A stretch of 64,000 nt of DNA from Gelidibacter gilvus. GTDB lineage: Bacteria > Bacteroidota > Bacteroidia > Flavobacteriales > Flavobacteriaceae. The notes beneath the pieces were generated by a model, which ran no database searches, was not told the DNA's origin, and saw only the letters and a program-made list of their open reading frames with translations. Both the position numbers and the translations under genes were made by a program. The DNA is taken from assembly GCF_004115975.1 (NCBI RefSeq), contig NZ_SDDZ01000005.1:62001-126000 (forward strand), given 5' to 3'. Shown one piece after another: positions 18,896 to 59,147 of this stretch (position 1 is its first letter; the number at the start of each line of letters is the position of its first letter).

Positions 18896-19482
18896 TTTAT
18901 TGTATAAGTTAGAAAATATAAGTGCGCGAAAATACCAATTTCTATCAAATAATAAAAGTAGAAGACCATTTTATTAAATTAATCTTGAATTGTTTGTGAT
19001 TGATCGCAGGCGGAAGTCAGTTTATCCTGAAGAAAAGTGATGTTTTTAGATGAGTGATTACTGAAAAAGCTGTTTTACGGAGTTCTGTTGGAAAAGAATA
19101 AGATTCTGGTTACCGATGATGGATATCCAAAGATTGAAGATTATCGTTCCTATCGATCGTCTCCTTTTCTAACTCGATAAAGCTCAAGCGGACGTTCTGA
19201 GTGGGTTATGTTAGGTTACTAGAGATTGAAAACTGAGAATCTTCAAAACTAAAAGCTATCACGCAGAGATCCACAAAGAAGACACAGAGATTCACAAAGG
19301 CCTGCTGCCAAGAACTGACTACTAAACACTGTACACTGATTACTATAGACTGCATACTGCTTACTGAAGACTGCTATTACGCAGAGGCACACAAAGAAGG
19401 CACAAAAGTTACACAAAGGCCAGCTGCCAAGAACTGACTACTGAACACTGTACACTGCTTACTGAAAACTGCCCACTGAACC
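18896..19482. other. Intergenic stretch with possible gene remnant and repeats
   Basis: The right part is a tandem repeat (listed separately). The left part has no gene. An open frame without ATG at 19058-19180 on the plus strand reads ...KKLFYGVLLEKNKILVTDD and ends at a TAA; it is only 40 codons and could be a decayed gene fragment, but I cannot name it. Confidence 0.4.
19256..19482. repeat. Tandem repeat, two units of ~118 bp
   Basis: CTATCACGCAGAG at 19256 and CTATTACGCAGAG at 19374 begin two similar units. Each has a CACAAAGAAG...CACAAAGG block, the block CTGCCAAGAACTGACTACT, and runs of short ACTG-rich words (GAACACTGTACACTGCTTAC). The first block is of the same CACAAAG type as the repeats at 16058-16650. 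The repeat abuts the stop codon of the CNNM gene. Confidence 0.8.
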
Positions 19483-52190: not shown

Positions 52191-52865
52191 ATGGGTATAC
52201 TTTCCAAAAAACAAACGGATGGCGATAATGAAATGGCCACCGATTTCCATTTTCCAACCTCCAAAAAAGCACTGATCATTTTCACTCGCAATCCAGAATT
52301 GGGTAAATGTAAAACGCGATTGGCAAAAACGATTGGAGATGAAAATGCATTGGAAGTCTATAAATTCCTTTTAAATCACACCGCTTCAATTGCAAAAGAG
52401 GTTAAAGCTGATCGCTATGTCTTCTATTCTGAAAACATACTAAAAGACGATCTTTGGGACATTGGAACTTTTCGAAAAAAACTGCAAAAAGGTGACGACT
52501 TAGGCCAACGGATGCAAAATGCATTTGTAGAATTATTGGAAATGGGTTATGAAAAAGTCTCTATTATCGGTAGTGATCTTTTGGATTTGGATGCCGAAAT
52601 TGTCAATACTGCATTTGCACAACTCGATTTTAATGATGTAGTGATTGGACCAGCTTTAGACGGCGGATATTATTTATTGGGAATGAAAAATCTATATCCC
52701 AATGTATTCAAAAATAAAGTGTGGGGCAGTGCATCGGTATTGCAATCCAGTTTGAAGGACCTCCAAAATAGCACGGTCTATTTGTTGAAAGAATTGAATG
52801 ATATCGATACCTTTGAAGACATGAGACATTATGAACCACTTAAAAAATTTCACAATATAAGATGA
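52191..52865 (+). CDS. Arsenosugar-locus glycosyltransferase (TIGR04282/DUF2064 family)
   Basis: 224 residues. ALIIFTRNPELGKCKTRLAKTI (split: FTRNPELGKCKTRLA) is the DUF2064 nucleotide-sugar transferase P-loop-like start; VSIIGSDLLDLDAEIV and GPALDGGYYLLGMKNL are the further family blocks. DUF2064 is a nucleotidyl/glycosyl-transferase fold. The predicted role is building the sugar part of the arsenosugar after adenine has been removed. It has a 20-residue leader (GILSKKQTDGDNE); an internal start is possible. It overlaps the next gene by 4 bases. Confidence 0.88.
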   Translation: MGILSKKQTDGDNEMATDFHFPTSKKALIIFTRNPELGKCKTRLAKTIGDENALEVYKFLLNHTASIAKEVKADRYVFYSENILKDDLWDIGTFRKKLQKGDDLGQRMQNAFVELLEMGYEKVSIIGSDLLDLDAEIVNTAFAQLDFNDVVIGPALDGGYYLLGMKNLYPNVFKNKVWGSASVLQSSLKDLQNSTVYLLKELNDIDTFEDMRHYEPLKKFHNIR

Positions 52866-53674
52866 TGAAATATATCAACGAAACTATAGAGTACTTACAA
52901 AAGAAGGGCTTTGAAAATCCGGAAATCGGCATTATCCTCGGTACGGGATTGGGTCAATTGATCGATGCCGTAGAAATCCTTCATGAAGTCAGCTACAACC
53001 ACATTCCCAATTTCCCGACGGCAACGGTCGAATTTCATAAGGGAAAATTGATTTACGGAATTATAGAAGGTAAAAAAGCCATTATCATGCAAGGACGTTT
53101 TCATATATACGAAGGCTACTCGCTACAAGATGTAACCTACCCTGTTCGGATTATGGAAAAACTGGGCATTCATACGCTTTTGGTTTCCAATGCATCAGGA
53201 GCGATCAATCTCAATTTCAAGAAAGGAGAATTGATGCTCATTGAAGATCATATCAATCTTCAAGGCAGTTCACCGTTGGCATTTAAAGGTGTGGAACATT
53301 TGGGCGAGCGTTTTACGGATATGAGCGCACCTTACGATGCGGAAATTAATGATAAATTTGAGCAAATTGCCAAAACCCATAACATCACACTTCACAAGGG
53401 AGTCTATGCTTCTGTGGTCGGGCCGCAGTTGGAAACAAGAGCAGAATATCGCATGTTAAAAATCATAGGTGCCGATGCGGTTGGGATGAGTACGGTTCCT
53501 GAAATTATTGTTGCCAATCACTTAAAATTAAAAGTGGCGGCGGTGTCAGTTTTAACAGATGAATGTGATCCAAGCAATCTAAAACCTGTAGATATTTCAG
53601 AAATTATTGCCATGGCTGAAAAAGCGGAACCGGATATGATTGTTTTGTTTAAGGAGTTGATAAAGAGTTTATAA
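52862..53674 (+). CDS. Purine nucleoside phosphorylase (PNP/MTAP superfamily), arsenosugar-locus type
   Basis: 270 residues of the trimeric PNP/MTAP family. GTGLGQL (phosphate loop), QGRFHIYEGYSLQDVTYPV, LVSNASGAIN, and GPQLETRAEYRMLKIIGADA with GMSTVPE (purine-site Glu region) are all present. The next block is VSVLTDECDP; in human PNP this position is Asn243 (guanine/hypoxanthine), and in methylthioadenosine phosphorylase it is Asp. Asp here implies a 6-aminopurine (adenine) substrate, which fits cleavage of adenine from the ArsS product. It overlaps the transferase gene by 4 bases (ATGA) and its last ~45 codons are repeated twice downstream. Confidence 0.92.
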   Translation: MMKYINETIEYLQKKGFENPEIGIILGTGLGQLIDAVEILHEVSYNHIPNFPTATVEFHKGKLIYGIIEGKKAIIMQGRFHIYEGYSLQDVTYPVRIMEKLGIHTLLVSNASGAINLNFKKGELMLIEDHINLQGSSPLAFKGVEHLGERFTDMSAPYDAEINDKFEQIAKTHNITLHKGVYASVVGPQLETRAEYRMLKIIGADAVGMSTVPEIIVANHLKLKVAAVSVLTDECDPSNLKPVDISEIIAMAEKAEPDMIVLFKELIKSL

Positions 53675-53738
53675 ATTATTTGAGTTAGACCTGACAGGTT
53701 ACTAAAAGCTAAAAGATCCCAAGAGCATAAAAAAAGAG

Positions 53739-53758
53739 ATTCCTGCCTTCGCAGGAAT
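53739..53758. repeat. 20-bp palindrome ATTCCTGCC...GGAAT, copy 1
   Basis: ATTCCTGCCTTCGCAGGAAT (one mismatch in the centre). Related copies at 53963-53982 and 54400-54419 (ATTCCTGCCTGCGCAGGAAT). The three differ at one central base. Confidence 0.85.
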
Positions 53759-53899
53759 TTAAAAGCGGTATCAGTTTTAACGGATGAATGCGATCCAAGC
53801 AACCTAAAACCTGTAGATATTTCAGAAATTATCGCCATGGCTGAAAAAGCGGAACCTGATATGATTGTTTTGTTTAAGGAGTTGATTAAGAGTTTATAA
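53759..53899 (+). pseudogene. Second copy of the phosphorylase 3' tail, 46 codons plus stop
   Basis: In frame, starting LKAVSVLTDECDPSNLKPVD and ending FKELIKSL then TAA at 53897-53899. From GCG GTA it matches the gene end with 7 base differences, all synonymous (GTG/GTA, ACA/ACG, TGT/TGC, AAT/AAC, ATT/ATC, CCG/CCT, ATA/ATT). Relative to the gene it lacks two codons (GTG GCG) just before this point. There is no start codon near it. Confidence 0.9.
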
Positions 53900-53911
53900 T
53901 TTATTTGAGTC

Positions 53912-53944
53912 AGACCTGTCAGGTTTTGAAAACATGAAAGGTCT
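53912..53944. repeat. REP-like 33-base element, hybrid arms
   Basis: AGACCTGTCAGGTTTTG on the left has GT at the variable position; the right arm (CATGAAAGGTCT) has AA. The arms therefore do not fully pair, as expected of a recombinant between two family members. Confidence 0.7.
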
Positions 53945-53962
53945 AAAGAACATAAAAAAAGG

Positions 53963-53982
53963 ATTCCTGCCTGCGCAGGAAT
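53963..53982. repeat. 20-bp palindrome, copy 2
   Basis: ATTCCTGCCTGCGCAGGAAT, directly abutting the third phosphorylase tail. Confidence 0.85.
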
Positions 53983-54123
53983 TTAAAAGCAGTGTCAGTT
54001 TTAACGGATGAATGCGATCCAAGCAATCTAAAACTAGTCGATATTTCAGAAATTATTGCCATGGCTGAAAAAGCGGAACCGGATATGATTGTTTTGTTTA
54101 AGGAGTTGATTAAGAGTTTATAA
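53983..54123 (+). pseudogene. Third copy of the phosphorylase 3' tail, 46 codons plus stop
   Basis: In frame, LKAVSVLTDECDPSNLKLVD..., ending TAA at 54121-54123. Against the gene end it has 6 differences in shared codons, one non-synonymous (CCT to CTA, Pro to Leu) and five synonymous. It starts at the same codon as copy 2, next to the 20-bp palindrome. Confidence 0.9.
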
Positions 54124-54135
54124 ATTATTTGAGTC

Positions 54136-54168
54136 AGACCTGTCAGGTTTTGAAAACTTGTCAGGTTT
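54136..54168. repeat. REP-like 33-base element, degraded
   Basis: AGACCTGTCAGGTTTTG followed by AAAACTTGTCAGGTTT; the left arm carries GT and the right arm carries TC, so the two arms are from different variants. Confidence 0.65.
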
Positions 54169-54357
54169 CCCAACTAAACTTTGTTAAAACTATAGTGAAA
54201 CTTATAAGTCGATGCCGCCAAGAATCTTTGCAAATGAAAATTCAACTTTAGAGCTGAAACCTCTATAAAATCGAAAAAGAACATTCATGTTTTGGAAAAA
54301 ATAAATAGCCGTAAGCAATTATTAAAAATACGACTATACTAAATATTATACAGGATT

Positions 54358-54382
54358 CACCTTTCAAGCGAAAGGTGTTTTT
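54358..54382 (+). terminator. Terminator-like hairpin before the hydroxylase gene
   Basis: CACCTTTC/GAAAGGTG form an 8-bp stem with loop AAGC, followed by T5 at 54378-54382. It lies downstream of the tail array with no gene directly before it. Confidence 0.6.
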
Positions 54383-54399
54383 AACGTTTTAATTATGAG

Positions 54400-54419
54400 A
54401 TTCCTGCCTGCGCAGGAAT
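54400..54419. repeat. 20-bp palindrome, copy 3
   Basis: ATTCCTGCCTGCGCAGGAAT, ending 5 bases before the ATG at 54425 of the hydroxylase gene. This copy is not next to a phosphorylase tail. Confidence 0.85.
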
Positions 54420-54424
54420 GAGGT

Positions 54425-55312
54425 ATGGAAAAATATATTGACATCATTTTAAAATCCTATTCTGGATATTGGCGTTACCTCAAATATGAGTTAACCCACG
54501 TATACCATTGGGACAACTATTTTTATGGATTAATCGTTATTTCTTTAGTGGTTTGGCTATTGGAAATCTTGTTTCCTTGGCGTAAAAACCAATCCATATT
54601 CAGAAAGGATTTTTGGCTGGACACCTTTTATATGTTCTTCAATTTCTTCTTATTGAATTTGATTGTCCTCATTGCACTTTCCAATACCACGGCTGAGTTT
54701 TTCAATGATATTCTTGGTCTTTTTGGTTGGCATGTGGATAGTTTACAGGTTTTTAGTGTGAGCGAATTACCAAAATGGTTGGGGTTATTGATCTTCTTTT
54801 TGATCATCGATTTTGTCCAATGGAACACTCACATCTTGTTGCATCGCGTGCCATGGCTGTGGAATTTTCACAAGGTGCATCACAGCGTTAAAGAAATGGG
54901 ATTTGCCGCACATTTGCGTTACCATTGGATGGAACCGGTAGTCTATAATTCTATATTATACATTCCTATTGCCATAATTGGAGGTTTCAATGTACAAGAT
55001 GTTTCTATTGTTTACTTTTTCTCCATCGTCATTGGGCATTTGAACCACGCCAATTTAGGATGGAATTATGGCCCGTTGAAATATATTTTCAACAATCCGA
55101 AAATGCATATCTGGCATCATGTGAAAGAATTGCCCGAGCATAAAAAGTATGGTATGAACTACGGATTAACTTTAAGCTTGTGGGATTATATTTTTAACAC
55201 ACATCATGTACCACATGATGGAAGGGATATCGAACTCGGATTTCATGACGAAGACGATTTTCCAAAAACCTTTGTCAAACAAACCATTTACCCGATAAAG
55301 TCTAAAAAATAG
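54425..55312 (+). CDS. Sterol desaturase / fatty-acid hydroxylase-family membrane enzyme
   Basis: 295 residues with membrane helices (about 35-52, 70-92, 120-140, 175-205). The di-iron histidine boxes are present: HILLH near 138, HKVHH near 155-160, a later HLNHAN, and HIWHH near 237-241. Family members hydroxylate or desaturate lipid-type substrates with O2. It follows the arsenosugar genes on the same strand but after a gap of ~750 bases that contains repeat sequence, so involvement in arsenolipid or sphingolipid-type chemistry is a guess from location. Confidence 0.88.
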   Translation: MEKYIDIILKSYSGYWRYLKYELTHVYHWDNYFYGLIVISLVVWLLEILFPWRKNQSIFRKDFWLDTFYMFFNFFLLNLIVLIALSNTTAEFFNDILGLFGWHVDSLQVFSVSELPKWLGLLIFFLIIDFVQWNTHILLHRVPWLWNFHKVHHSVKEMGFAAHLRYHWMEPVVYNSILYIPIAIIGGFNVQDVSIVYFFSIVIGHLNHANLGWNYGPLKYIFNNPKMHIWHHVKELPEHKKYGMNYGLTLSLWDYIFNTHHVPHDGRDIELGFHDEDDFPKTFVKQTIYPIKSKK

Positions 55313-58586: not shown

Positions 58587-59147
58587 ATGAACTACGAACC
58601 ACTCATAGAAGGTAATTATTATCACATTTATAATTGTGGAAACAATAAAGAAGATATTTTTATTGAAGAAAAAAACTATGAGTATTTTTTGCATTTATTA
58701 AAGAAACACATTCTACCTTGTTCCGATATTTTAAGTTTCTGTTTGTTAAAAAATCATTTTCATTTATTAGTTTTTCTGAAGGAAAACCTTGAATCAAAAA
58801 TCATTTCGCAGTGCTATTCAAATTTTTTTAATGCTTACGCAAAAGCTATTAACAAGTCGTATCATCGTACTGGAAGTTTGTTTAGAAATAGATTTTCAAG
58901 AATTAAAATTACCGATGAGGATTATTTAAGATCTTTAATTATTTACATCCATACAAATCCAACACATCATCAATTCGTCGATGATTTCAAAACCTACAAG
59001 TATTCTTCTTACAAATCAATCATGTCAAAACAACCAACTTTATTGCATAGGAATTTTGTGCGTGATTTATTTGATAATAGAGAAAATTTTCAATTTGCAC
59101 ACAACAATAAACAGCTAAGAATCAAGGAAGAATTACTTTTAGAATAA
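58587..59147 (+). mobile_element. REP-associated tyrosine transposase (RAYT, TnpA_REP/Y1 HUH family)
   Basis: 186 residues. The HUH motif is NHFHLLV near 56-62 (in LLKNHFHLLVFLKE), and the catalytic tyrosine is in YIHTNP near 119-124 (IIYIHTNPTHH). GNYYHIYNCGNNKEDIF and GSLFRNRFSRIKI are further Y1-transposase blocks. Domesticated RAYTs move or maintain REP palindromes rather than themselves (family knowledge). It stands alone, between two intact REP-like palindromes (58536 and 59155), and separates two genes that look functionally linked. Confidence 0.93.

Follow-up and report, generated by a model that had tools for sequence, protein, structure and literature searches.

The purine nucleoside phosphorylase (PNP) gene in the window, by which we mean the whole stretch of 64,000 nucleotides analysed here, is followed by two in-frame copies of its own 3' end, each set behind a REP-like palindrome. 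This arrangement probably arose by REP-joined tandem duplication of the 3' end of the gene, with later homologous exchange of silent and live tails. This explanation is favoured by a tandem array with a REP at each joint, by 51 exact copies of the palindrome in the genome against none of a reversed control, and by 10 loci with copied sequence. It also draws on comparisons between relatives, namely a 218/221 match of a live flank to a silent one, a tail discordance with P = 1e-6, reciprocal states at codons 256, 257 and 261, and the 31:2 ratio of synonymous to non-synonymous differences in near copies. It is weakened by the 7 of 20 arrays without a foot joint, by the lack of discordance between the window's tail and that of Gelidibacter japonicus, and by between-species recombination.

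The live PNP gene (52862–53674) scores above cut-off with NCBIfam NF006054 and matches solved PNP structures. Upstream of it lie arsS and a TIGR04282 gene, neighbours which imply that the PNP gene may be part of an arsenosugar cluster. Alignment and codon counts place the portion that recurs downstream at 53540–53674. It is followed by a 3' flank of 64 nt (53675–53738) and a first palindrome, ATTCCTGCCTTCGCAGGAAT (53739–53758), then by tail copy 2, of 45 codons including the stop (53765–53899), its flank of 63 nt (53900–53962) and a second palindrome, ATTCCTGCCTGCGCAGGAAT (53963–53982). Tail copy 3 (53989–54123) has a flank of 276 nt (54124–54399), and a third palindrome without a tail behind it (54400–54419) forms the right border of the array, next to a gene of the fatty-acid-hydroxylase family (54425–55312; Pfam PF04116). 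The features given with coordinates all lie on the plus strand. The three units are spaced 225 and 224 nt apart, and Tandem Repeats Finder gives the array a score of 1052.

The preliminary description had reported three ~225-bp units carrying the last ~45 codons of the gene with frame and stop kept, and the alignment confirms this: counting the stop, copies 2 and 3 each share 94.8% identity with the last 45 codons, and neither contains a gap or a new stop. The codon differences that it had counted by eye also proved exact (synonymous:non-synonymous), at 7:0 for copy 2 versus the gene, 5:1 for copy 3 versus the gene and 6:1 for copy 2 versus copy 3, the sole non-synonymous change in copy 3 relative to the gene being P242L, which involves two bases. 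The palindrome ATTCCTGCCTNCGCAGGAAT does precede each of the two downstream copies, but the aligned homology starts 6 nt later rather than immediately after it, and the two palindromes, which had been taken as identical, differ at the central base (T before copy 2, G before copy 3). An oddity or artefact of a single assembly is unlikely, given that the copies differ from each other and that four genomes carry different arrays at PNP.

A search of close relatives for extra tails, which had been proposed at the outset, showed that three other Gelidibacter have copies at the same gene. Together with the window's genome (a Gelidibacter of 4.63 Mb in 42 contigs; G000), extra PNP tails thus occur in 4 of 9 Gelidibacter genomes, with two copies in the window's genome, two in G. 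japonicus (G008), three in G. pelagius (G004) and three in G. maritimus (G006). DNA searches of the remaining five found no PNP tail copy; such searches gave only two of the three copies in G. pelagius, and hence can miss old short copies. Among the best 80 of 385 PNP loci compared, tail copies were seen in three, all from Gelidibacter, and the other 77 had none, five of these giving only matches of 16–21 nt. In G. mesophilus, a single REP stands where the right border of the array would be and tail copies are lacking, as expected before duplication. The last copy in G. japonicus, G. pelagius and G. maritimus is one old ortholog, recognizable by shared changes at codons 261 and 266, and is decayed. 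A special role for the base-recognition loop, which had been remarked upon as part of the tail, is not supported, as the tails in relatives span only 17–23 codons.

The palindrome is present in 51 exact copies in the window's genome, compared to 0 for the reversed control, and in 0 to 43 exact copies in the other eight Gelidibacter. Its placement was read for the arrays, where it is mostly intergenic. In the PNP arrays its 5' foot reads GAG, mostly ATGAG, and the GTAG (or CGTC) tetranucleotide is absent. At all 51 sites, we checked the sequence downstream for copies of the preceding 1.5 kb, and such copies turned up at 10 loci, comprising five gene tails (PNP, lepA, a 506-residue ORF, yifB and atpG), two gene heads (a copA-like gene and a GIY-YIG gene) and three spacers (at trpF, at usp and beside hisS), the matches at atpG and beside hisS being weak (46 nt, 80–85%). 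The name copA comes from Pfam; lepA, yifB, atpG, GIY-YIG, trpF, usp and hisS were named by eye from protein sequence. That the phosphorylase is special in this respect is not supported, since in this genome the repeat also carries copied tails or heads of six further genes (one of them, atpG, weakly, over 46 nt). We therefore reject the idea that the array is special to purine metabolism, similar copies being found at lepA, yifB, the 506-residue ORF, the copA-like gene, the GIY-YIG gene, trpF, usp and, weakly, atpG.

Heads and tails alike are partial copies of the kind that tandem duplication can make without breaking the gene. The GIY-YIG heads lie behind REPs and ahead of the intact gene (locus L174 1951–3301, contig C24 of the window's genome), in mirror image of the tail arrays. 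The copA-like gene is a P-type ATPase frame of 1045 codons with three HMA domains (locus L223 451–3588, minus strand, contig C11 of the same genome), in which the REP-joined head copies stay in frame; the REP process appears to have added in-frame metal-binding domains to a copper-type ATPase.

Several other repeats were noted in these genomes. In G. japonicus, seven copies of the last 11 codons of a 402-aa gene lie behind REPs, and six of them show no difference (locus L211 2277–3333, contig C1). A MetH-like half-protein (named by eye) of this species ends within a REP, with IPAEAGIS and then a stop (locus L214 2959–3969, minus strand, contig C13), so that the REP supplies its last residues and stop. 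Behind a hisS-like gene of the window's genome (locus L227 3966–4735, contig C38) there is a tandem repeat of ~113 bp with no exact REP within it. The window itself contains, at 19255–19478, a tandem repeat with a 119-bp unit (1.8 copies) that encloses shorter repeats of 21 bp.

We surveyed the joints of 20 arrays, which were picked in four genomes because their REPs cluster or their sequence matches itself, admitting REPs with up to two mismatches and considering both strands and all edges. In 13 of the 20 arrays, a raw count with no formal null, a copy begins between –4 and +6 nt relative to the REP's 3' foot. Loci L213 and L219 gave no self-match, and the hisS-side match (46 nt) was left out. 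One of the three lepA copies counts toward the foot joint, the REP at the other two having more mismatches, and arrays of G. pelagius are under-sampled, 30 of its 43 REPs being among the matches listed. Beyond the hairpin, foot joints continue into gene or spacer sequence that in its other copy lacks a preceding REP; the first bases there are variable and rarely CT or CA. Copies of PNP begin in three ways, at codon 227 in the window, at 249 in G. japonicus and at 255 in G. japonicus, G. pelagius and G. maritimus. The seven arrays without a foot joint start at 11–13 nt (trpF), at 58–76 nt (usp, atpG and an array on contig C14 of G. japonicus), or inside or before the REP (yifB and two at the 506-residue-type gene).

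The first step of the proposed mechanism is drawn from the joint anatomy of those 13 arrays. A segment that starts within the gene tail and ends at the REP hairpin would be duplicated head to tail, giving a new joint at the 3' foot of the hairpin and leaving the gene intact with extra tails behind it. The first joint might be made by a RAYT transposase or by template switching at the hairpin. In the second step, recombination among the direct repeats would make silent tails live and silence live ones, and would alter copy number. This exchange is supported in relatives, and we infer that it also took place in the window's genome.

Support for exchange comes from G. japonicus and G. pelagius, with one genome compared per species. 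The 3' flank of the live G. pelagius unit is identical to that of the silent copy 2 of G. japonicus at 218 of 221 positions, compared to 44 of 53 matching positions for the two live flanks. At codons 256, 257 and 261, the two species have the same synonymous alternatives in opposite live and silent positions. Within G. pelagius, the live tail and copy 2 are identical over a block that runs from codon 262 until 45 nt beyond the stop, with differences on either side of it, as in the footprint of a conversion tract. The two live genes also differ unevenly along their length, at 37/450 positions in 1–450, 6/312 in 451–762 and 11/51 in the tail (763–813), the tail being discordant both with 451–762 (P = 1e-6) and with 1–450 (P = 0.005). 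Either loss of a unit in G. pelagius or import into G. japonicus would explain the correspondence between live and silent units, and either entails a change in which tail is live.

One caveat is that the sequence around the PNP gene diverges by 8–12% between these species, versus 1.9% in 451–762. This tract itself must therefore have been shared recently, so between-species recombination contributes and could explain part of the tail discordance. The PNP tail in the window shows no discordance with G. japonicus (P = 0.65); compared with G. pelagius, P = 0.004 relative to 1–450 and 0.065 relative to 451–762. At codon 235, the live gene of the window has TGT, as do the live genes of G. japonicus and G. 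pelagius, and both window copies have TGC, as do the other eight Gelidibacter or near-relative genes compared, which suggests that the live tail of the window changed after the copies were made. The earlier proposal of tail exchange between array and live gene is supported in part: the support comes from comparing G. japonicus with G. pelagius, and in the genome of the window a swap was not directly observed.

An alternative would be plain tandem duplication together with ordinary homologous recombination between the live gene and alleles of other strains or species, in which the tail was replaced by a divergent functional allele, which would make all differences synonymous, and the copies were never live again. 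The PNP gene is indeed a mosaic (8.2% divergence between G. japonicus and G. pelagius in 1–450 and 1.9% in 451–762), and the distribution of TGT and TGC at codon 235 also speaks for such replacement. However, the 6:1 difference between copies 2 and 3 needs more than a change in the live gene, and a unit that is silent in G. japonicus is live in G. pelagius. We consider this account possible, and clearly less probable than exchange within the array.

A second alternative involves a transposase. The window encodes a RAYT-like Y1 transposase (58587–59147, plus strand) ~4 kb downstream of the PNP array, with a Pfam PF01797 score of 22.3 bits, just below the cut-off of 23 (22.7 bits in a second scan, 23 with neighbours). 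The protein is 57% identical to the RAYT that G. maritimus and G. pelagius encode within their PNP arrays, where the gene sits between REPs. Relatives of the window's gene occur near PNP in two further genomes (G001 and G003), and one RAYT of G. japonicus is ~370 nt from a REP. No REP was found within 1.5 kb of the window's RAYT-like gene or in the flanking DNA examined at five RAYT-like loci of the window's genome. RAYT-like (Y1_Tnp) sequence also occurs in open frames of ~500–527 codons (G000:C24:191570-192082, with relatives in G004, G006 and G008), which are perhaps fusions.

REP hairpins and RAYT might together form a tail-copying device, with strand transfer from the 3' foot into the gene end depositing spare 3' ends, of which the near ones would be kept functional by continual swapping with the live gene. 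The array would then be a repair reserve for the tail of the gene. RAYT-mediated strand transfer involves cleavage at a fixed dinucleotide beside the hairpin, CT or CA in published cases (PMC8266576). The joint bases seen here are mostly not the CT or CA of the studied TnpAREP proteins, which argues somewhat against the RAYT route, and we regard such a device as unlikely. The tail array is probably a by-product of REP instability rather than a programmed switch.

Returning to duplication followed by exchange, the third step would account for the pattern of codon differences. Near tails would have been live recently, or been converted by the live tail, so that they would differ at synonymous sites as functional alleles do; old distal tails would decay. 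Relative to their own gene, near PNP copies of the four genomes have 31 synonymous and 2 non-synonymous differences, versus 15 and 12 for older copies (P = 0.0006), where the grouping was chosen after the copies were seen, rows share ancestry and P values serve as guides only. These counts exclude joint codons and score the TGA/TAA stop of G. japonicus as synonymous. The near copies in G. japonicus, G. pelagius and G. maritimus gave 8:0, 3:0, 4:1 and 4:0, and regrouping copy 3 of G. pelagius as near changes the totals to 36:4 for near and 10:10 for older copies. In the window's genome, the two PNP copies together give 12:1, compared to 27:32 for nine tail alignments at four other genes, lepA, the 506-residue ORF, yifB and atpG (Fisher P = 0.002, rows not independent). 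The latter count excludes three short extra alignments of the 506-residue ORF (3:1, 3:2 and 2:3) and all rows of two G. japonicus genes, the 402-aa gene and metH (8–11 codons each).

Could a recent duplicate simply have gathered synonymous changes by chance? The numbers are small (7 and 6 codon differences), and the near copies are short and related by descent. But for copy 2, with 7 of 7 differences synonymous, P = 0.0006–0.004 for kappa 1–5, under a model that places half of the differences on a synonymous-only gene and half on a neutral copy. Moreover, an equal bias is seen in the near copies of G. japonicus, G. pelagius and G. maritimus, and it is absent in older copies and at other genes. 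These data make chance a very unlikely explanation.

Integrative elements such as the phages at icd bring their own copy of the 3' end of a gene, and elements of this kind leave displaced tails with mainly synonymous differences. The PNP tails might thus be remnants of elements whose bodies were lost, a reading that predicts the observed kind of difference but is highly improbable, since the units consist of tail, short flank and REP only, 224–225 nt apart, with no room for an element, and since joints of this kind are also present at gene heads and in spacers. Least credible of all is selection on the silent tails for a product of their own or as RNA. In its favour, the frames are open to the stop and copy 3 holds a 43-codon GTG frame, but older PNP copies decay and Rfam, folding and promoter-like sites are all without signal. 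The Rfam search gave no match, folding of 53662–53770 was not beyond that of shuffles (z = –1.11), and promoter-like sites were at chance level (4 versus 3.9 expected). Of the 3 terminator-like sites (1.0 expected), two are REPs in the minus-strand reading. On the grounds of the missing Rfam match, the z value and the identity of those two sites with REPs, an RNA element was rejected. We infer that the silent tails are without function.

In enterobacteria, REP-mediated tandem duplications have a join point between two REPs. The Gelidibacter duplications likewise have a REP at the join point, but the partner at the joints compared is non-REP and the units are only ~100–300 nt. In the antigenic variation system of pilS and pilE, promoterless 3' partial silent copies lie next to one expressed gene and are able to convert it. 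The Gelidibacter silent copies are also promoterless 3' partial copies adjoining one gene, with exchange supported by the comparison of G. japonicus and G. pelagius; unlike pilS, the near copies encode nearly the same amino acids (31 of 33 differences synonymous), the gene has a metabolic role, and no dedicated switching signal emerged. With 2 of 33 codon differences in near copies non-synonymous, there is no sign of protein diversification, the purpose that silent cassettes serve and that the PNP tail copies do not.

The nearest published counterparts, as far as the portions of the reports available to us describe them, are tandem REP and REPIN clusters. REPs lie mainly downstream of coding regions, and large REP clusters are reiterated together with flanking DNA segments (PMC3733652). 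Tandem REPIN clusters with flanks, and clusters adjacent to RAYT genes, have been described as well, the former pointing to a second mechanism of cluster formation (PMC3116915). The Gelidibacter hairpins are similarly reiterated in tandem with flanking sequence, and in the G. pelagius and G. maritimus arrays a RAYT gene lies between REPs. Unlike in those clusters, to the extent that they are described there, the Gelidibacter flank is coding (gene tails and heads), the joint is at the 3' foot of the hairpin and live and silent tails appear to be exchanged; the bases at the foot also differ, being GAG with the GTAG tag absent. We found no coding gene tails in REP units, hairpin-foot joint or live-gene exchange in open-licence PMC literature. 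The earlier statement that no such system is known for a metabolic gene thus agrees with that search, but tandem REP clusters with flanking DNA are published, so far as the parts of those reports available to us go (PMC3116915, PMC3733652). Relative to known REP clusters in that literature, coding tails within units, the hairpin-foot joint and exchange with the live gene appear to be new.

These arrays call for some caution, as a nearby gene fragment that differs only at synonymous sites may owe this to exchange rather than to expression. The foot joint with a non-REP partner is a sharp, testable clue to how tandem REP clusters arise. More broadly, a tiny hairpin repeat can multiply coding pieces beside working genes without breaking them, and the copied pieces may feed back into the live gene.
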